Shown in pieces: positions 7,457-31,297 of a stretch of DNA of 64,000 nucleotides. Position 1 is the stretch's first letter. Every line of letters begins with the position of its first letter. The stretch comes from Paramagnetospirillum kuznetsovii (GTDB taxonomy: Bacteria > Pseudomonadota > Alphaproteobacteria > Rhodospirillales > Magnetospirillaceae). The position numbers and the translations under genes were made by a program. A model generated the notes under the pieces. The model was not told where the DNA came from and did not search any database. It worked only from the letters and a program-made list of their open reading frames with translations. The stretch is from assembly GCF_003284725.1 (NCBI RefSeq), contig NZ_PGTO01000010.1, positions 62,001 to 126,000 on the forward strand. The letters run 5' to 3'.

Positions 7457-8371
7457 ATGGGCATGAACGGCGCGCGGAAGCCCAGCTTCCAAAGCCTGAT
7501 CCTTACTCTCCAGGCCTTCTGGGCCGAGCAGGGCTGCGTCATCCTGCAGCCTTACGACATGGAGGTGGGGGCCGGAACCTTCCATCCCGCCACCACGCTG
7601 CGCGCCCTGGGGCCGGATCACTGGAAATGCGCCTATGTGCAGCCGTCTCGCCGCCCCAAGGACGGCCGCTACGGCGAGAATCCCAACCGCTTGCAGCATT
7701 ACTACCAGTATCAGGTGCTGCTGAAGCCCAGCCCGCAGAATTCCCAGGAGCTTTACCTGGAAAGCCTGAAGCGCCTGGGCATCGACCCGCTGGCCCATGA
7801 CATCCGCTTCGTCGAGGACGACTGGGAAAGCCCGACGCTGGGCGCCTGGGGCCTGGGCTGGGAAGTGTGGTGCGACGGCATGGAAGTCACCCAGTTCACC
7901 TATTTCCAGCAGGTCGGCGGCATCGAATGCGACCCGGTGGCGGTGGAGCTGACCTATGGTCTGGAACGCCTCGCCATGTATATCCAGGGCGTCGAGAACG
8001 TCTACGACCTGGACTTCAACGGCGACGGCGTCAAATACGGCGACGTCTTCCTTCAGGCGGAGAAGGAATACTCCGCCCATAATTTCGAGCACGCCAATAC
8101 CGACATGCTGCTGCAGCACTTCCTCGACGCCGAGAAGGAATGCCAGAACCTGCTGGAAAAGGGCGTGGCGCTGCCCGCCTATGACCAGTGCATCAAGGCC
8201 AGCCACCGCTTCAATCTGCTGGACGCGCGCGGCGTCATCTCGGTGACCGAGCGCCAAGCCTATATCGGCCGCGTCCGCGCCCTGGCGAAAGCCTGCTGCG
8301 AAGGCTGGCTGGCATCGCGTAGCGGCCCTGCGGCGCAGGCCGCAACTCCTTCCGACAAGAAGGGAGCATAA
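7457..8371 (+). CDS. glyQ: Glycyl-tRNA synthetase alpha subunit
   Basis: The 304-residue catalytic alpha chain of the bacterial heterotetrameric GlyRS. The conserved blocks are obvious: [58 protein letters not shown] and [19 protein letters not shown]. The C-terminus carries about 15 extra residues ([16 protein letters not shown]). The downstream glyS starts two bases after the stop, so the two subunits are co-transcribed and probably translationally coupled. The first ATG ([11 protein letters not shown]) is used; ATG three codons in cannot be excluded. Confidence 0.98.
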
Positions 8372-8373
8372 CC

Positions 8374-10440
8374 ATGGCTGAACTGCTCCTGGAAATCCTG
8401 TCCGAGGAAATTCCCGCCCGCATGCAGGCCCGCGCCGCCGAGGATCTGCACCGCATGGTCTGCGACGGCCTGGGCAAGAACGGCATCACCTTCGACGCCG
8501 CCCGCTCCTATGTGACGCCGCGCCGTCTGGTGCTGGTGATCGAGGGACTGCCGCTGGCCGGTCCCGACGTGTCGGAAGAAAAGCGCGGCCCCCGCGTCGG
8601 CTCGCCCGCCCAGGCCATGGAGGGCTTCCTCAAATCCACCGGCATGAGTGTCGATCAACTGGAAAGCCGCGACACCGGCAAGGGCGTGTTCTATTTCGCG
8701 GTGATCAACCGCAAGGGCCGCCCCACCGCCGAGGTTCTGAAAGAGGTCGTCGAGGAGGCCATGGCCGGTTTCCCCTGGCCGAAGAGCATGCGCTGGGGCG
8801 CCAATCCCCAACGCTGGGTGCGTCCCATCCAATCCATCATCTGCCTGCTGGACGGCGCGGTGGTGCCGGTCTCCTTCGGTCCCGTCACGGCGGGCAACCT
8901 GACCTCCGGCCATCGCTTCCTGGCGCCCGAGACCTTCCGGGTCAAGGACTTCGCCGAATACCTTGCCAAGCTGCGTCACGCCAAGGTCATGCTCGATCCC
9001 ATCGAGCGCCGCCACGCCATCCTGTCCGGTGCGGAAGCCCTTGCGCTGGCCGAGGGGCTGACGCTCAAATCCGACGACGGTCTGCTGGCCGAGGTCACCG
9101 GTCTGGTGGAATGGCCGGTTCCCCTGGTGGGCTCCATCGACGACAGCTTCATGGACGTGCCCGCCGAGGTGCTGATCACCTCCATGCGCTCGCACCAGAA
9201 GTATTTCTCGCTGCTCAAGGCTGACGGTTCCCTGGCGCCCCGCTTCATCGTGATCTCCAACATGGAGACCACGGACGGCGGCAAGGCGGTGGTGGCGGGC
9301 AATCAGCGCGTCCTGCGCGCCCGGCTGTCCGACGCCAAGTTCTTCTGGGACACCGACCGGAAACACAGCTTGCAAAGCCGGTTGGGCAAGCTGGACGAAC
9401 GGCTGTTCTACGCCAAGCTGGGCACGCTCGCCGACAAGGTGATCCGTATCCAGAATCTGGTGGGGGCGATGCCGTTCCTGTCGCTGGAAAGCAAGACCAA
9501 CGCCCTGGTGGCCGCCACCCTGTGCAAGGCCGATCTGTCGGCGGAGATGGTGGGCGAGTTCCCCGAGTTGCAAGGCATCATGGGCCGCTATTACGCGCTC
9601 AACGACGGCCTGCCCGCCGAGGTGGCCGACGCCATCGCCCAGCATTACTCGCCGCTGGGGCCGAACGATTCCTGCCCCACCGCCCTGGTTTCGGTGGCGG
9701 TGGCCCTGGCCGACAAGATCGACAGCTTGGTGGGCTTCTTCGGCATCGACGAGAAGCCGACCGGCTCCAAGGATCCCTTCGCGCTGCGCCGCGCCGCGCT
9801 GGGCGTCATCCGCCTGATCGTCGAGAACGGCTTGCGTGTCTCGCTGCTCGCCCTCTTCGCCGAGGGGCATAAGAGCTTTGAGTCGCCGTTGTCGGCGGAT
9901 GCCGCCTCGGTCGGCGCCGACCTGCTGGCCTTCTTCGCCGATCGTCTCACCGTCGCCCTGAAGGAAAAGGGCGTCCGTCACGACCTGATCAACGCCGTTT
10001 TCTCCCTGGGTGGCGAGGACGATCTGGTCCGCCTGCTGGCCCGGGTCGATGCCCTGGACGCCTTCCTCAAATCCGACGACGGCGCCAATCTGCTGGTGGC
10101 CTATCGCCGCGCCGCCAATATCGTGCGCATCGAGGAGAAGAAGGACGGAACCACCTTCACGGGCCACGCGGACGTCCAACTGCTGCGCCAGGATGAAGAG
10201 AAGGCGCTTGAGCATGCCTTGACCGATGTCGGGCAGTCGGTGAAGAACGCCCTCGCCACCGAGGATTTCGCGTCCGCCATGGCTGCCCTGGCCAAGCTGC
10301 GCCGTCCGCTGGACGCTTTCTTCGACAAGGTGACCGTCAATGCCGACGAGGCCTCCTTGCGCGTGAACCGCCTGAGGCTGCTGGCTCACATCGGTTCGAC
10401 CATGGGGCAACTGGCGGACTTCTCCAGGGTGGAGGGGTGA
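8374..10440 (+). CDS. glyS: Glycyl-tRNA synthetase beta subunit
   Basis: The 688-residue beta chain that binds tRNA-Gly and completes the alpha2beta2 enzyme. It opens [18 protein letters not shown], a hallmark start, and contains the HD-like middle ([25 protein letters not shown]) and the anticodon-binding DALR-type C-terminus ([22 protein letters not shown]). Length is normal. It starts two bases after glyQ with GGGAGCATAACC upstream. A dispersed repeat follows the stop. Confidence 0.98.
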
Positions 10441-10450
10441 GCATTCGGAT

Positions 10451-10560
10451 TCTTCGTCATTCCCGCGAAAGCGGGAATCCATGCGTCCGGCGGCACGATT
10501 CTTAGCGTTGAGTATCGGCCGGGAGCAAACATGGACCCCCGCCTTCGCGGGGGTGACGAG
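10451..10560. repeat. Dispersed paired-hairpin repeat, copy 2
   Basis: Left arm 10455-10482 contains CATTCCCGCGAAAGCGGGAA; right arm 10531-10557 contains GACCCCCGCCTTCGCGGGGG. Arms are inverted with about 50 bases between. It lies between glyS and ppdK, where it could form RNA hairpins in a read-through transcript. Confidence 0.85.
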
Positions 10561-10667
10561 AGAGAAAAAGGCCGGGGAGCGACACTCGGCCAGACTAGGC
10601 ATCGGGCCTGGGAAAGAGCATTATTCTTATACTCCGGTGAACTCCTTTTTTGGGTGCGAGGACGACC

Positions 10668-13352
<2,685 letters not shown>

Positions 13353-24169: not shown

Positions 24170-24346
24170 ATAAGATCCGCGAGGCGTTGGTACCCCTGGC
24201 GGAGGGCGGCTTTATATGTCGATACGGGGCATGGCGCAAGGGGAAAATGCAAAGGCTTTCCAACCGGATCGCGGCCCCTTTGCAAAGGGTCGCGGCGGGG
24301 GTAAAACCACGGGCAGAAATACACCCGCGAACAGGGGATCGAGGAC

Positions 24347-25705
24347 ATGACCGAGAGCACCAAATACCTGCTGTCCGAGGACCGGCTTCCCAAGGCTTGG
24401 TACAATCTCAACGCCGATCTGCCGGTGCCCGCGCCGCCGCCGCTGCATCCCGGCACCGGCCAGCCCATCGGTCCCGATGACCTTGCCCCCATCTTCCCCA
24501 TGGCGGTCATCGCCCAGGAGGTCAGCAGCGAGCGCTGGGTGGAGATCCCCGAGCCGGTGCGCGAGGTCTATCGTCTGTGGCGGCCGTCGCCGCTGGTCCG
24601 CGCCCGCCGCCTGGAAAAGGCGTTGGATACCCCCGCCAGGATCTATTTCAAATACGAGGGCGTCAGCCCGGCGGGCAGCCACAAGCCCAATACCTCGGTG
24701 CCCCAGGCCTTCTACAACAAGCAAGAAGGCGTCAAGCGCATCGCCACCGAGACCGGGGCGGGCCAGTGGGGATCGTCCATGGCCTTCGCCGGATCGCTGT
24801 TCGGCCTGGAAGTGGAGGTCTTCATGGTCAAGATCTCCTTTGAGCAAAAGCCCTATCGCCGCGCCCTGATGGAGACCTATGGCGCCAAGTGCATCGCCAG
24901 CCCGTCGCCGCTGACCCATGCCGGGCGCGCCATCTTGGAGAAGGATCCCAATTCCAACGGCTCGCTGGGCATCGCCATCTCCGAGGCGGTGGAGGTGGCG
25001 GCGTCGCGCGACGACACCAAATACGCCCTGGGCAGCGTGCTCAACCATGTCTGCCTGCACCAGACGGTGATCGGCGAGGAAGCCATGCTGCAGATGGAGA
25101 TGGCAGGCGATACCCCCGACATCGTCATCGCCTGCACCGGCGGCGGCTCCAACTTCGCCGGTCTGGCCTTCCCCTATATCCGCGAGAAGCTGAAGGGCCA
25201 GAAGGTCCGCGTCATCGGCGTCGAGCCCGCTTCCTGCCCGACCCTGACCAAGGGCCTCTACGCCTACGACTTCGGCGATACCGGCAAGCTGACCCCGCTG
25301 GTCAAGATGCACACCCTGGGCGCCACCTTCATGCCGCCGGGCTCGCATGCCGGAGGGCTTCGCTATCACGGCATGGCCCCCATGGTCAGCCATGTGAAGG
25401 AACAGGGGCTGATGGAGGCCCGCGCCTATCACCAGACCGAGTGCTTCGCGGCCGCCGTGCTGTTCGCCCGCGCCGAGGGCATCGTGCCCGCGCCGGAATC
25501 CTCGCACGCGATCAAGGCGGCGGTGGACGAGGCTTTGCGCTGCAAGGAAGAGGGCAAGGCCGAGACCATCCTGTTCAATCTGTCGGGCCACGGTCATTTC
25601 GACATGCAGGCCTATACCGACTATTTCTCGGGCAAGCTGAAGGACACACTCTACAGTCAGGCCGACCTGGACGCCGCCTTGGCCGAATTGCCCAAGGTGG
25701 GGTGA
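24347..25705 (+). CDS. TrpB2-type tryptophan synthase beta chain-like enzyme
   Basis: 452-residue PLP enzyme, longer than TrpB1 (about 400). The Schiff-base Lys is K113 in SPAGSHKPNTS; the phosphate-binding loop is IACTGGGSNFAG; TrpB2-specific features are RPSPLVRARRLEKAL, KYEGVSPAGSHKPN and the C-terminal LFNLSGHGHFDM. TrpB2 proteins can condense indole with serine or O-phosphoserine but are often not the main TrpB. No trpA or other trp gene is nearby, so it is an orphan salvage-type enzyme by inference. ATG follows AGGGGATCGAGGAC. Confidence 0.9.
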   Translation: MTESTKYLLSEDRLPKAWYNLNADLPVPAPPPLHPGTGQPIGPDDLAPIFPMAVIAQEVSSERWVEIPEPVREVYRLWRPSPLVRARRLEKALDTPARIYFKYEGVSPAGSHKPNTSVPQAFYNKQEGVKRIATETGAGQWGSSMAFAGSLFGLEVEVFMVKISFEQKPYRRALMETYGAKCIASPSPLTHAGRAILEKDPNSNGSLGIAISEAVEVAASRDDTKYALGSVLNHVCLHQTVIGEEAMLQMEMAGDTPDIVIACTGGGSNFAGLAFPYIREKLKGQKVRVIGVEPASCPTLTKGLYAYDFGDTGKLTPLVKMHTLGATFMPPGSHAGGLRYHGMAPMVSHVKEQGLMEARAYHQTECFAAAVLFARAEGIVPAPESSHAIKAAVDEALRCKEEGKAETILFNLSGHGHFDMQAYTDYFSGKLKDTLYSQADLDAALAELPKVG

Positions 25706-25744
25706 GGAGGGGAGCGGGCGGGACGCCCGCGCTCCAAGCACGTC

Positions 25745-25946
25745 GGCGCCTGAGGGACATATATGGAGCGACGCGACTGGCGCATTGCGCGCCCGCCGCT
25801 CGTGCGGCGAAAGCCAAGAGAGCGGAGCGAACGCCCGGCGCCTGAGGGACATATAGAGGAGCGAAGCGACTAGCCCGTTGAGGGCGCGCGCCCCATGGCG
25901 CGAAAGCCAAGCGAACGGAGTGAGCGCCCGGCGACTGAGGGACATA
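25745..25946. repeat. Tandem repeat, two units of 92-93 bp plus a partial third
   Basis: Units begin at 25745, 25837 and 25930. Each starts GGCG-CTGAGGGACATA and ends with AAAGCCAAG, GCGAACGGAGTGAGCGCCC-like sequence. The third unit is cut after 17 bases, where the cbb terminator begins. The core CATGGCGCGAAAGCCAAG (25894-25911) recurs exactly at 61147-61164. In both places it is intergenic. Reverse-strand frames through it encode low-complexity repeats and are not counted as genes. Confidence 0.85.
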
Positions 25947-25995: not shown

Positions 25996-26889
25996 TCAGC
26001 CAAGGACGGACCGGCGGTCCTCCATGATCCGGCGAAGGATCGGGGTTAGGATCAATTCCATGGCAAGCCCCATCTTGCCGCCGGGCACCACGATGGTGTT
26101 GCGGCGGCTCATCCAGGAATCCTTCAGCATCTGCAGCAGGAAGGGAAAGTCGACCCGGAAGCGGTCGGGTTTGCGAAAGCGGATCACCACCAGGCTTTCA
26201 TCGGCGGTGGGGATGTCGCGGGCGATGATGGGGTCCGAGGTATCGACGATGGGAACGCGCTGGAAGTTGATGTCGGTCAGCTTGAACTGCGGCACCACGT
26301 AGTGAACATAGTCGTGCATGCGGCGCAGGATGGTCTCCATGACCGCTTCCTCGGAATAGCCGCGTTCCGATGTGTCGCGATGGATCTTCTGGATCCACTC
26401 CAGATTGATCACCGGCACCACGCCGATCTTGAGGTCGGCATGCTGGGCCACATTGGTGGTCTTGGTGGAGACGCAGCCGTGCAGGCCTTCGTAGAACAGG
26501 CAGTCGGTATCCTCGGGGATTTCCTCCCAGGGGGTGAACTCGCCCGACTTGACGCCGAGATGGGCCAGTTCGGCCGCCTCGTCGTCGTTATGGACGTAGA
26601 GGCGGCGCCGTCCGCGTCCGGTATCGCCATAGGTTCCGAACAGTTCCTCCAACTCGCCGAACAGATTGGCCTCGGGGCCGAAATGGCTGAAGGTGCGGCT
26701 GCCCTTCTTTTCCGCCTCGGCCAGGGCCTTCTTCATGTCCACCCGGTTATAGCGGTGGAAGCTGTCGCCCTCGACGATGGCGGGCTTGATGCCTTCGCGC
26801 CGGAACATGTGTTCGAAGGCTTCCTTGACGGTGCTGGTTCCGGCGCCGCTTGAGCCGGTCACCGCGATGATGGGATGTTTTCTCGACAT
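25996..26889 (-). CDS. cbbP: Phosphoribulokinase
   Basis: Phosphorylates ribulose 5-phosphate to ribulose 1,5-bisphosphate, the RuBisCO substrate. 297 residues, the length of the octameric bacterial type. P-loop GSSGAGTST (about residues 12-20), then PAIVEGDSFHRYNR with the catalytic-base region, and the FYEGLHG motif. It follows cbbM by 27 bases on the same strand, and the two are the only Calvin-cycle-specific genes in view. A strong terminator lies just downstream. Confidence 0.96.
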   Translation of the reverse strand: MSRKHPIIAVTGSSGAGTSTVKEAFEHMFRREGIKPAIVEGDSFHRYNRVDMKKALAEAEKKGSRTFSHFGPEANLFGELEELFGTYGDTGRGRRRLYVHNDDEAAELAHLGVKSGEFTPWEEIPEDTDCLFYEGLHGCVSTKTTNVAQHADLKIGVVPVINLEWIQKIHRDTSERGYSEEAVMETILRRMHDYVHYVVPQFKLTDINFQRVPIVDTSDPIIARDIPTADESLVVIRFRKPDRFRVDFPFLLQMLKDSWMSRRNTIVVPGGKMGLAMELILTPILRRIMEDRRSVLG

Positions 26890-26916
26890 ATTGGTGCTCC
26901 CCCAGAATCCCTCGAC

Positions 26917-28293
26917 TCAGCCGATGCGCAATTTCTCGCGCCAGCCCGGATAGATGCGGTCGGCATCGGCGGCGAAGGATTCGAACGCCCCCTTCAATTC
27001 GGGATGCGACTTGGCGTAATCCACCAGATCGACGCCCTCGATCCAGGCCTGATGGGCCTGACGCAGGCTCATGGCGCCCGCCACGGCGCCGTCCTTGTGG
27101 CCGAAGGCGCCGCCACCCGAGGTCTGGATGACGTTGGAATGGCCGAGATTGGTGAAGAAGCCCGGCAGCCGCAGCGCATTCATGCCCCCCGAGATGATGG
27201 GCGTGCACGACTTCATGCCGCACCAGTCCTGGGTATAGTACGGCCCCTCGGCCACGTCGCGTTCCAGCATATAGGCCACCATCTTCTCGGTGGGGTCGCC
27301 CTCCATCTTGCCATAGCCCATGGTGCCGGTGTGAATGCCGCTGGCGCCGAGCAGCCGGGCCATCTTCATATGCACAAGCACGGTATAGCCGCGCTTGGAC
27401 TGGTTGGAGGTCACGGCGCCGTGACCGGCGCGGTGATAGTGGAGGAACTGGGCCGGGAAGTTGCGCCGACAGGTGGTCACCGCCGTCGGACCGGCGACAT
27501 AGCCGTCCACCAGGAAGGCGACGTGGCTGGCGTTCTCGGCGAAGGTCTCCAGGATGTAGTGGCCGCGCGCCAGCATCTCGGCGGGATCGTCGGCGGTGAT
27601 ATTGGCCGAGAACAGCTTGGCCTGTCCGGTCTCGTCCTGAGCCCGCTTCATGGCGTCGGCCACCAGCCGGATGGTCTCCTTCAAGGGCGCGAAGACCTGA
27701 TTGCCCTGGGGCTCGTCGTTCTTGATGAAATCGCCGCCCAGCCAGAACTGATAGCAGGCGTCGGCGAAGGGTTGAGGGCGCAGGCCCAGCTTCGGCTTGA
27801 TGATGGTGCCCACCACCATGCCGCCATCGGTCTGGGGGCGGCCCAGGGCGCGCCACATCTCGGCGATATTGGTCGCCGGTCCGTCGAACAGTTGGAGAAA
27901 TTTGGGCGGCACGTAGAAATCCACCATCTTGGCGTATTCCACGTCGCTCATGCCCTGGTTGTTGCCGATGGTCAGCGTCAGGAAGGACGCGATCATGGCG
28001 CGGCCGTCGATGATGTTGCGGTCGAACAGATCCACCGGATAGGCGATCTTCATCAGTTCGCGCTGCTCGTCGATCTCGTAGACCAGGGCATCGACGCCGC
28101 GGGTGAAGTCGTCGGTGGTGCAGACCTCAACATTGGTGCCGGTGGAGGATTCGGCGGCGAAGTGGGCGGCGGTTGCCAGATAGGCGTGCCCGCTCTTGGG
28201 CTTCATGCGGTAGGCGCACAGCACATGGGTGCCGCCCTCGATCAGGGCCGCTTCCTTGAGGCCGAGATTGGCATAGCGCTTTGATTGATCCAT
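26917..28293 (-). CDS. cbbM: RuBisCO form II large subunit
   Basis: Carboxylates ribulose 1,5-bisphosphate. 458 residues from the ATG at 28293 ([12 protein letters not shown]) with GGGAG upstream; the frame opens 23 codons earlier without a good site. Residue numbering matches the R. rubrum enzyme: catalytic Lys166 in TIIKPKLGL, carbamylated Lys191 with Asp193/Glu194 in [11 protein letters not shown], and loop and phosphate motifs [12 protein letters not shown]. Form II needs no small subunit. Its low CO2/O2 specificity fits microoxic or anoxic growth. No cbbR lies beside it in this window. Confidence 0.98.
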
Positions 28294-28442
28294 GTCGGAT
28301 GATCTCCCTGGGTCTTTTTTCGTTGCCCCCACTCTGGCGTCATCGCGAGGGGAGGAGAACACCCATGCGGGGAGTGTGGAAAAATGACATGGGTGGGGAA
28401 AAAGCCATCCCTATGGGCGGCGAAAGGGTGGGGGGCTGCGCT

Positions 28443-28868: not shown

Positions 28869-29056
28869 GTCCACCCTCCCGTCTTTGGTCATCCACTCAG
28901 GAGCAGAGCACTAGCGACAGCGGCCAGCTTCGTCAATAGGCCAAGGGGGTCGGATTTGGGACGCGGCAGCTGCATGTTTCCTGCATAGCTTTTTTGGGCT
29001 ATTCCTCATGGAGGCATTGCCTGGCAGGCAGTTAAGAATCCCACGGAGAAATGACG
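28869..29056. other. Spacer upstream of the PBP-channel gene
   Basis: 188 bases between two divergent genes. It contains the 13-base dyad TGCCTGGCAGGCA at 29018-29030, some 25 bases before the channel start, a plausible operator. No convincing -35/-10 pair was identified. Confidence 0.45.
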
Positions 29057-31297
29057 ATGCGCCGACTTTTGACCGTACTTCTCGCCCTTCTTGCCGTCCT
29101 GTTCACGGCCGAGGCCGAAGCCAAGACGTACAAGGTCGGGGTGTTGGTCCCATTGACCGGCCCATCCGCCGATAAGGGAATTCCGCTCAAGAACGCCGCC
29201 GAGCTGTTCGCGGAGCAATTCAATACCGGCGCCGATGCCAGCGGCAATAAGATTGAACTCGTCGTCCGCGATGATTTCGACGATCCGGAAAAAGCAAAGG
29301 CCGCCGCCGCCGAATTGGTCAAGGACGAGTCCCTGATCGCCGTGATCGGCCACTACTATCCTGGCGTCGCCCTGGCCACCGGCAAAATCTTCGCCGATGC
29401 CAAGATCCCGTTCCTGTCGCCCAATGTCAGCAGCCCGGCGGCCTTTTCCGGCAATAAGTGGATGTTCGCCATGAACATGCCGGACAGCGTTCAAGGCGCT
29501 TTCCTGGCCACCTATATCAAGGAAGTCCTCAAGAAGGACAACGTGCTGGTGATCCACAATACCGACCCGTTCGGCACGGCGCTGCGCGATGCCTTTCTCG
29601 ACAAGGCGGCCCGCCTGGGCCTCAAGGTCTTGAAGACGCAGCCGGTGGAGGTTGGGCCGGTGCAGAAGGGTTGGGTTGCCGCGACCTTGCCCGATGCCGC
29701 CGAGAACCAGCGATTCGGCATCGTCGCCGCGCTGACCCACAGCGAGTCCGGCCTGTCCTTCCTGCCCCAACTGCGCGATCATGGCATCAAGGTTCCGGTC
29801 ATGGCGCCAAACACGTGGTCGAACCCGAAATTCCTCACCGAGGTGGACGAGAAATACACGGCGGATGTCTATCTCGCCTCTGCCTTCCTGTGGGAAATCG
29901 CCAATCAGAAGGCCTCCGCCTTCGCCAGTACCTATGCCAAGCGGTTCGGGGGACGGCCCTCGGTCGCCGCCGCCATGTCCTACGATGCGGTCAATCTGGT
30001 CAGCAACGCCATCAAGGCGGCGGATTCAAGTGGCGCGACCCGGTCTTCCGTCCGCGATTACATCGCCGGGATCGAGTGGCACGGCTTCGTCGAGGGGGTG
30101 ACCGGCAATCTGTTCTTCAAGAACGGCCGCGACATGACCGCTGAATACGTCGCCAAATATCTGCGCGAGGCCAAGGGGGTGACGGAACCCCCGCGTCCGC
30201 TTGGCGAGACGGCGGTCCAGTCCGCTTATCGGGATGTCTATGTCTCGGTGATGAAGGATGGCCGTTTCAAGACCGCCTCGGTGCAACTGCTGATTCCGCA
30301 CGAGGAATACGTGCTCAAGGAATTGGCCGAGCGTATCGGCAAGGGGCAGGTCACCCTGGTGGACGGCACGCCCTATCATGTCGTCGATGTGGTCTCGGTC
30401 GGCGTCGACGTGATCCGCATCAATGATGTCAGCATCAAGGACATGCAGTGGGATGTGGACGTCTTCATGTGGTTCAAATGGGCCGGCGGCCGCCTTGACG
30501 CCAAGGATATCGAGAAGATCGGCGCCATCAACGCGGTCAAGGAGCAATCCTCCCTGTTCAAGGAGGATCTCTCGCATTCGACCAAGTACCGCGCCTATCG
30601 CAAGCGTCTGACCCTGACCGCGCCCTACGATCTGTCGAACTTCCCGTTCGATTCGCAGGTCTTGCCGCTCGAGATCGCCCATATCAACAAGAACTCGACC
30701 CATGTGATGCTCGTTCCCGACACCCGTCATATGGAAACGGTGCCGGTGAAGGATATCAAGCCGCAGGAGTGGATTTACACGGGCCGGAGCGTGTTTTCGG
30801 ATCTTTATCGCTACGATTCGACGTTCGGTGATCCCGATTACCGTCTGGGGACGGGCTACAAGAGCCCGGTCTATTTCTCGACGGTCAATCTGGATATCAA
30901 CATCCATAGAATGTTGAAGCCTTACCTCTTCACCTTCTTCCTGCCCCTGCTCATCATCCTGGGCATCATCCTGATCATTCTGTGGGTTCCGCTCGACCAG
31001 TTCGCTCCCCGCATCAATGCCACGATCTCCGGCTTGATCGGTGTGCTGGTCTACCACATGTCCCAGAAGAACTCGTTTCCCAAGGTCGGCTATACCATGG
31101 TCGCCGACTATTACTTCCTGGTGGCCTATGCCTTCGTGGTGTCGATGATCTTCGCCATCATCCTCATCCAGACCATGATGTCCAAGGGGAAGAAGGACGA
31201 GGCGAAGGTCTGGAACCGCAGACTCAGTCTGGGGGCCATGCTTACTGCGGTGACGATCTACCTCACCATGACGTTTGTTTCGATGTATGGGGCTTAG
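29057..31297 (+). CDS. Periplasmic binding protein fused to a pentameric ligand-gated ion channel
   Basis: 746 residues. ATG at 29057 is eight bases after GGAG; the in-frame ATG at 29051 is only two bases from it. Order (numbered from the 29051 ATG): signal peptide 1-24; type I periplasmic binding domain about 26-380 (YKVGVLVPLTGPSADKG, AVIGHYYPGVALATG, VSSPAAF, IHNTDPFGTALRDAF), like LivK-type amino-acid receptors; linker; pLGIC ligand domain about 405-618, with the Cys-loop equivalent YDLSNFPFDSQVLPLEI lacking both Cys residues; then four membrane helices at about 621-646 (with the conserved Pro), 653-671, 684-708 and 725-745. No cysteine occurs in the protein. It should be a homopentameric inner-membrane channel whose binding domains hang in the periplasm. 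Stands alone, with hairpins after the stop. Ion selectivity and ligand are unknown. Confidence 0.93.
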   Translation: MRRLLTVLLALLAVLFTAEAEAKTYKVGVLVPLTGPSADKGIPLKNAAELFAEQFNTGADASGNKIELVVRDDFDDPEKAKAAAAELVKDESLIAVIGHYYPGVALATGKIFADAKIPFLSPNVSSPAAFSGNKWMFAMNMPDSVQGAFLATYIKEVLKKDNVLVIHNTDPFGTALRDAFLDKAARLGLKVLKTQPVEVGPVQKGWVAATLPDAAENQRFGIVAALTHSESGLSFLPQLRDHGIKVPVMAPNTWSNPKFLTEVDEKYTADVYLASAFLWEIANQKASAFASTYAKRFGGRPSVAAAMSYDAVNLVSNAIKAADSSGATRSSVRDYIAGIEWHGFVEGVTGNLFFKNGRDMTAEYVAKYLREAKGVTEPPRPLGETAVQSAYRDVYVSVMKDGRFKTASVQLLIPHEEYVLKELAERIGKGQVTLVDGTPYHVVDVVSVGVDVIRINDVSIKDMQWDVDVFMWFKWAGGRLDAKDIEKIGAINAVKEQSSLFKEDLSHSTKYRAYRKRLTLTAPYDLSNFPFDSQVLPLEIAHINKNSTHVMLVPDTRHMETVPVKDIKPQEWIYTGRSVFSDLYRYDSTFGDPDYRLGTGYKSPVYFSTVNLDINIHRMLKPYLFTFFLPLLIILGIILIILWVPLDQFAPRINATISGLIGVLVYHMSQKNSFPKVGYTMVADYYFLVAYAFVVSMIFAIILIQTMMSKGKKDEAKVWNRRLSLGAMLTAVTIYLTMTFVSMYGA

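Follow-up and report, generated by a model that had tools for sequence, protein, structure and literature searches.

A stretch of 64,000 nucleotides from Paramagnetospirillum kuznetsovii (hereafter the window) encodes a protein that joins, in a single chain, a type I periplasmic binding domain (PBP-I) to a pentameric ligand-gated ion channel (pLGIC), and the same PBP-I followed by a homologous extracellular domain (ECD) is also found in one frame on an MscS-type pore in its relatives, including members of the window's own genus. This MscS-borne counterpart is the part that specialists would not expect; the layout of the window's fusion is itself already known. The domains, their order, their homology, their conservation and the selection acting on them are directly observed. 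The selection on all three parts of the protein (PBP, ECD and transmembrane region), together with a Pro-loop that among PBP-bearing frames is kept only with a pLGIC pore, would favour a coupled receptor.

The frame, open throughout from 29051 to 31297 of the forward strand, yields 748 aa when counted from its first ATG at 29051, and all residue numbers used below refer to this version (P0001). A GGAGA element lies 7 bases ahead of a further ATG at 29057, as against 1 base ahead of ATG 29051; ATG 29057 is therefore the better start, from which the fusion gene amounts to 746 aa plus stop (Table 1). The initial annotation had described a single uninterrupted frame holding a signal peptide, a LivK-like PBP-I and a pLGIC with its ligand domain and four helices, and both the frame and these domain calls are borne out, the latter by Pfam, PDB and NCBIfam matches. 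Proteins 56-83% identical to it, with matches across all or nearly all of its length, are each encoded by one open frame in independent genomes, one of which (G009) is a single contig, and hence the fusion is not an assembly artefact. Separate frames, a frameshift and an assembly chimera are all ruled out, as the homologues of the relatives likewise sit in single open frames. Conservation is far lower in the signal peptide (35-54% identity to L015, L016 and L009) than in the remainder, and no cysteine is found among the 748 residues.

Table 1. Features of the fusion gene, with window coordinates; residues are numbered as in P0001.
Feature	Position	Strand	Basis and remarks
GGAGA, likely ribosome binding site	29045..29049	+	seen in sequence
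PBP-I/pLGIC fusion gene	29057..31297	+	frame and ten further distinct type-1 frames
Signal peptide	29057..29122	+	translation; probable AEA-K cut after residue 24, by eye
Type I periplasmic binding domain, LivJ/LivK type	29126..30289	+	Pfam, PDB sequence matches, Foldseek
pLGIC extracellular (ligand-binding) domain	30356..30907	+	residues about 436-619, approximate boundaries; sequence profiles
Pro-loop motif P-F-D-S-Q	30644..30658	+	residues 532-536; P532, D534 and Q536 invariant in 8 A1 rows
Transmembrane helices M1-M4	30902..31288	+	aligned to GABA-A receptors and ELIC; limits from low-confidence model
A-P-R before and at M2 position 0'	31004..31012	+	gap-free against A-A-R of GABA-A alpha-5

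Residues 26-380 had been assigned to the type I binding proteins, with a missing match named as the outcome that would tell against the fusion; a Peripla_BP_6 match was recovered over residues 26-358 (E 8.7e-49, above the Pfam cut-off), and the last strands of the domain probably extend past its end to about residue 413. Sequence searches retrieved the solved LivK/LivJ relatives 3hut (4e-26) and 4gnr (9.2e-25), and Foldseek, run with an AlphaFold model whose confidence is high chiefly in the PBP half, again retrieved 3hut (7.3e-19) along with LivJ and LivK. Profile and fold matches to LIVBP-like type I binding proteins span the whole domain, and the Pfam scan of P0001 revealed no PBP-II family at E <= 1. 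E232 aligns with a glutamate of the LivJ protein 4gnr, at a position that is acidic in all eight rows of A1 (E in seven and D in one) and that in the LIVBPs holds the amino group. The ligand is probably an amino acid or some other small solute bearing an amine.

In the second half, Pfam recovered Neur_chan_LBD (2e-4) and Neur_chan_memb (0.0084), both under the Pfam cut-offs. Searches against solved structures matched ELIC (2yn6) to residues 525-734 at 3.7e-11, a profile of eight channel halves found the GABA-A alpha-5 chain 8bej in the PDB at 2.8e-11, and the NCBIfam model LGIC_1 matched residues 517-718 at 1.6e-14, which is far below the very high cut-off of that model. The matches to solved pLGICs and to LGIC_1 therefore settle this half as a pLGIC despite the sub-cut-off Pfam matches. 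Two AlphaFold models built with 8 related rows had a mean pLDDT of 53.6 and 42.8 and gave no reliable ECD, blocks with a mean of about 20-40 covering most of it; both of these low-confidence models contain four transmembrane helices, one of them giving approximate limits of 618-645, 652-675, 683-711 and 715-746 for M1-M4. M2 and the M2-M3 loop align with GABA-A alpha-5 without a gap (FPKVGY in the window's protein versus LPKVAY).

The protein possesses the features of the pLGICs, namely an ECD homologous in sequence, the Pro-loop FPFDSQ (531-536) and M1-M4 with a proline in the M2-M3 loop, and lacks the cysteine pair that forms the Cys-loop disulfide of the animal receptors. Given FPFDSQ and the lack of any cysteine, it is a Pro-loop receptor and not a Cys-loop receptor in the strict sense; the earlier label "Cys-loop-type" thus holds for membership of the superfamily and fails in its strict meaning. 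A passage of Tasneem et al. (PMC549065) gives E-[RK] as usual in cation channels and A-[RK] in anion channels, both of which it expects in bacteria. The M2 motif of the window's protein, A-P-R, is without the acidic residue typical of cation channels, and [A/T]-P-R is present in 11/11 type-1 frames, the close family of the window's protein. This suggests a filter other than the usual cation-selecting one, which may pass anions, although the suggestion is drawn from the motif and the proline at -1' departs from the animal version.

Six loci of the genome collection hold relatives with 57-83% identity in the best segment. Among 149 genomes, 11 (the window's included) match at E <= 1e-30; the 13 matches in these, sorted by local profiles, comprise five PBP-pLGIC frames, one of them the window's, and eight PBP-ECD-MscS frames. 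After removal of identical proteins the type-1 family of PBP-pLGICs numbers 11 distinct frames, the window's included and two in one genome (L001, L009-L013, L014 twice, L015, L016 and L041, with L013 cut by a contig end). In a comparison that covered the type-1 family apart from L041, dN/dS lies well below 1 in the PBP, the ECD and the transmembrane part. Comparison with three genus-level proteins (L015, L016 and L009) gave dN/dS values of 0.16-0.17 for the PBP, 0.09-0.10 for the ECD and 0.15-0.23 for the transmembrane part, and dN values of 0.109-0.119, 0.058-0.075 and 0.090-0.119 respectively, the ECD being the lowest. In the more distant L013 the transmembrane part is 82% and the ECD 76% identical. 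Across the family, almost no variation is seen in M2 and the M2-M3 loop.

Several relatives display organizations of their own. In L014, a Gallionellaceae MAG, two PBP-pLGIC frames overlap in tandem (7992-10295 and 10252-12564; 57 and 56% identical to the protein of the window), and such a pair could possibly form a heteromer. In G563, from the class that contains Magnetococcales, a PBP-pLGIC gene is directly followed by a gene for about 400 aa that includes an ECD but no PBP, which Pfam does not recognize as a pLGIC and which has a relative, L033, in another class; pairs in this class are seen at L041 (1120-3465 and 3-1145, both on the minus strand) and L071 (4601-6925 and 3418-4620). The 691-aa frame of L034 (310-2382, plus strand) shows weak matches to pLGIC ECD and transmembrane models in its C-terminal part, and its N-terminal half of about 390 aa yields no PBP by Pfam.

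Pores could be assigned in 50 distinct PBP-bearing frames, of which 29 are of the MscS type (L019-L026, L028-L031, L042-L054, L057, L058, L061 and L062) and 21 are pLGICs; two further PBP-bearing frames, cut by the ends of their loci, stand outside these assignments. Where uncut, the MscS fusions measure 935-1086 aa from stop to stop. Pfam identified Peripla_BP_6 and MS_channel_2nd together in L020, L021 and L022, the MscS part at E 1e-15 to 1.6e-18, and NCBIfam added MscS matches below its cut-offs in L020 and L022; L021 comes from a single-contig genome. A frame of L031 (1-3549, minus strand), cut at 1183 aa, combines PBP-I, ECD and an MscS pore (MS_channel_2nd) with a cNMP-binding domain (4.5e-20). 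The fusions other than these four Pfam-scanned loci were assigned by local profiles.

The ECD borne by the MscS fusions is well supported as a homolog of that of the pLGIC fusions. Profile-profile comparison of the two returned a probability of 98.4 (E 9.6e-15, 220 columns), and comparison of the ECD cores alone (28 MscS versus 10 type-1 rows), which excludes any contribution of the last PBP strands, returned 98.2 (E 3.3e-14), whereas 200 column shuffles reached a probability of 7.8 at most; chance resemblance is ruled out by this control. A profile built solely from MscS-borne ECDs recovered the ECDs of the PBP-pLGICs, those of the PBP-less L033, L041b and L034 and, weakly, that of L039 (0.0054), likewise PBP-less, with no further match at E <= 10 among 523 frames, these E-values referring to a small set that was gathered with the family's own profiles and queries, MscS rows included. 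A PDB search with a profile of 7 MscS-borne ECDs yielded no pLGIC, its best match being agrin (E 1.3), and the tie of this domain to the solved pLGICs is therefore made through the ECDs of the PBP-pLGICs. The open-access literature searched yielded no record of PBP-ECD-MscS fusions.

The two sets of fusions differ sharply in the Pro-loop. In a joint alignment of 56 ECDs the signature PxDxQ is present in 21/21 PBP-pLGIC frames versus 0/29 MscS frames; of the six other ECDs, L034 and L039 possess it, and L033, L041b, L055 and L056 do not. The Pro-loop contacts the pore domain in pLGICs, and its lack on an MscS pore is what would be expected if the loop serves coupling.

Two trees, in both of which the root and the long branches are unsure, bear on how this arrangement arose. 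In the ECD tree (56 members: 29 MscS, 25 labelled pLGIC, of which 4 are PBP-less, and 2 unassigned) the MscS members form one clade (99/92), the outgroup including the PBP-less L033 and L041b under the pLGIC label; no pLGIC model matches these two in Pfam, nor L033 in NCBIfam or the PDB, and their transmembrane part compared with that of type 1 reaches a non-significant probability of 5.6. The free PBP tree (55 members: 28 MscS, 21 pLGIC, 4 stand-alone and 2 unassigned) has three label changes for MscS, with L002 and L032 (type-2 pLGIC) and L059 falling among the MscS PBPs, and the AU test does not reject a single clade for MscS (p 0.17). The simplest reading would be that the pLGIC pore was exchanged once for an MscS pore, a direction that hangs on the unsure root. 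That PBP-I with the pLGIC ECD is a portable sensor, which moved once from a Pro-loop pore to an MscS-type pore and lost the Pro-loop on the way, is to us an evenly balanced proposition. If true, one sensor gates two unrelated channels, the window's gene being the version with the pLGIC pore, and the ECD works in rings of different symmetry or couples in another mode; MscS of E. coli is a heptamer.

A merged ECD profile at E <= 1e-5 matched 8/385 genomes of a class sample and 43/398 of a phylum sample, which share genomes, the window's among them; all 13 class-sample matches and, of the phylum sample, the 30 loci listed were classified by pore. In the class of G563, 35/48 genomes match at E <= 1e-15, and a protein of one of these genomes (G602) is identical to that of the Magnetococcales MAG L011. 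Phyla beyond the window's own were scanned for close relatives only, and viral contigs held no relative of the fusion.

The window's genome encodes a second, distant PBP-I/pLGIC fusion (L002, on contig C11 of G000; 731 aa; 28% and 21% identity), in which the pLGIC half is similar to GLIC chains (4.3e-6 to 5e-5) and to a chimera of ELIC/GLIC type (5.2e-7). Its M2 begins with K-E-R versus A-P-R in the window's protein, so that under the above-mentioned E-[RK]/A-[RK] rule opposite selectivity is conceivable, and it is a fair guess that the two fusions differ in this way. The window's gene stands alone, its two neighbors, hemN and a gene resembling cytidine deaminase, being on the opposite strand; farther off, at 25996-28362 on the minus strand, a phosphoribulokinase gene adjoins that of a RuBisCO large chain (Pfam families), whose form we would guess to be II. 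A neighboring 577-aa frame (24212-25945, minus strand), in which Pfam finds no family at E <= 1, is perhaps not a gene. No operon partner of the fusion gene is seen within the window, and a scan for promoters and terminators found signals no more frequent than in shuffles.

Two genomes of the genus, G005 and G009, carry a TRAP transporter (DctP, DctQM) beside their type-1 fusion, and another lies near L002 with a histidine kinase gene in between (DctP 61% identical). Loci combining TRAP genes with PBP-pLGICs, of two fusion types, are L073 (1771-8531, with the histidine kinase gene), L069 (3286-8561) and L070 (5957-11298). TRAP genes were not found in the window or in seven other loci of at least 6 kb (L009-L012, L014, L071 and L072), and the fusion therefore has no fixed gene partner. 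The TRAP neighbors offer a hint that PBP-pLGIC receptors might watch over solute uptake.

We think it probable that the window's protein is an inner-membrane chemoreceptor channel, in which a LivJ/LivK-like periplasmic clamshell sits on a pentameric Pro-loop channel and makes it ligand-gated. The clamshell would close on its ligand in the periplasm, the beta-sandwich of the ECD and the Pro-loop would relay this closure as far as the M2-M3 loop, and movement of the latter would open or tune the pore. Gating by closure of the PBP is what we infer, as are the ligand class, the pentamer, the direction of gating and the ion selectivity; the literature searched holds no function, ligand or structure for any PBP-pLGIC. 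Alternatively, the PBP might only capture and present the solute, the true agonist site being at the ECD interface, as in the 'preliminary concentration or sensing' proposed in a passage of Tasneem et al. (PMC549065). We regard this as unlikely, though deserving of weight: it agrees with dN being lowest in the ECD when the three parts are compared with the genus-level proteins, whereas L013 indicates that the ECD is not always the best-conserved part, and the occurrence of PBP-I with the ECD on Pro-loop-less MscS pores weakly favors a single PBP-plus-ECD sensor unit.

A vestigial or structural PBP, serving assembly or contact with lipid or peptidoglycan in a channel that responds to pH, calcium or the state of the membrane, would have a precedent in the N-terminal domain of DeCLIC, which is of another fold and is described in parts of two reports as modulatory and calcium-sensitive (PMC9897478, PMC12664993). 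However, the PBP of the window's protein is under purifying selection (dN/dS 0.16-0.17) and an acidic residue is kept at the position of the LivJ glutamate, which makes such a role improbable. We consider it highly improbable that the protein is a non-conducting signaling or osmotic accessory with a channel-like fold: no report of conduction by any PBP-pLGIC was found in the literature searched and the gene has no operon partner hinting at its role, but M2 and the M2-M3 loop hardly vary in type 1, and where the other large group replaces the pLGIC pore it does so with another channel pore, that of MscS (29 versus 21).

ELIC and GLIC share with the window's protein the ECD, Pro-loop and M1-M4 at the sequence level (ELIC directly, GLIC through its match to L002) and differ from it in M2, where the window's protein has A-P-R at -2' to 0'. 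Neither is known to have an N-terminal PBP. DeCLIC, also a prokaryotic pLGIC, likewise carries an additional N-terminal domain in the periplasm, which however consists of two jelly-roll lobes and not of a PBP, according to a section of PMC9897478. NMDA and AMPA receptors, too, are ligand-gated channels whose outermost layer is a PBP-I domain. These belong to another channel superfamily, and as a passage of PMC549065 has it, the channel of NMDA-type receptors is inserted in a PBP-II domain with the PBP-I amino-terminal to it; the window's protein, with its pLGIC-type pore and no PBP-II, therefore resembles only their outer layer. The parallel to glutamate receptors drawn in the initial annotation accordingly survives for the PBP-I layer and not for the channel-bearing PBP-II domain. 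In the PBP-I/ECD/MscS fusions both PBP-I and ECD are homologous to those of the window's protein and equally ordered; these fusions differ in the MscS-type pore and the want of a PxDxQ Pro-loop.

The earlier belief that surveys had noted such fusions proved correct. Passages of Tasneem et al. 2004 (PMC549065) report fusions of PBP-I to ART-LGIC domains in Magnetospirillum magnetotacticum and Bradyrhizobium japonicum, describe their architecture and propose a role in chemotaxis. Like the window's protein, these fusions have a signal peptide, a PBP-I directly N-terminal to the ECD and four transmembrane segments in one chain, and they might include an ortholog of it. The same source, in the part bearing on this, finds a single member in most genomes with such channels, versus the two distant PBP-pLGICs of the window's genome. 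A statement in Jaiteh et al. 2016 (PMC4795631) places such domain associations at the genome level only and calls for experiments.

The window's protein provides a clean, conserved and cysteine-free case of a clamshell of well-studied kind set on a channel of the nerve-receptor type, and once its ligand is identified, the role of prokaryotic pLGICs would become testable. The MscS versions carry the same two sensor layers, so that two unrelated pores share them and only one is accompanied by a Pro-loop. Comparison of the pLGIC and MscS fusions thus offers a naturally occurring test that would tell the sensing part of a Cys-loop-type receptor from the part coupled to the gate.
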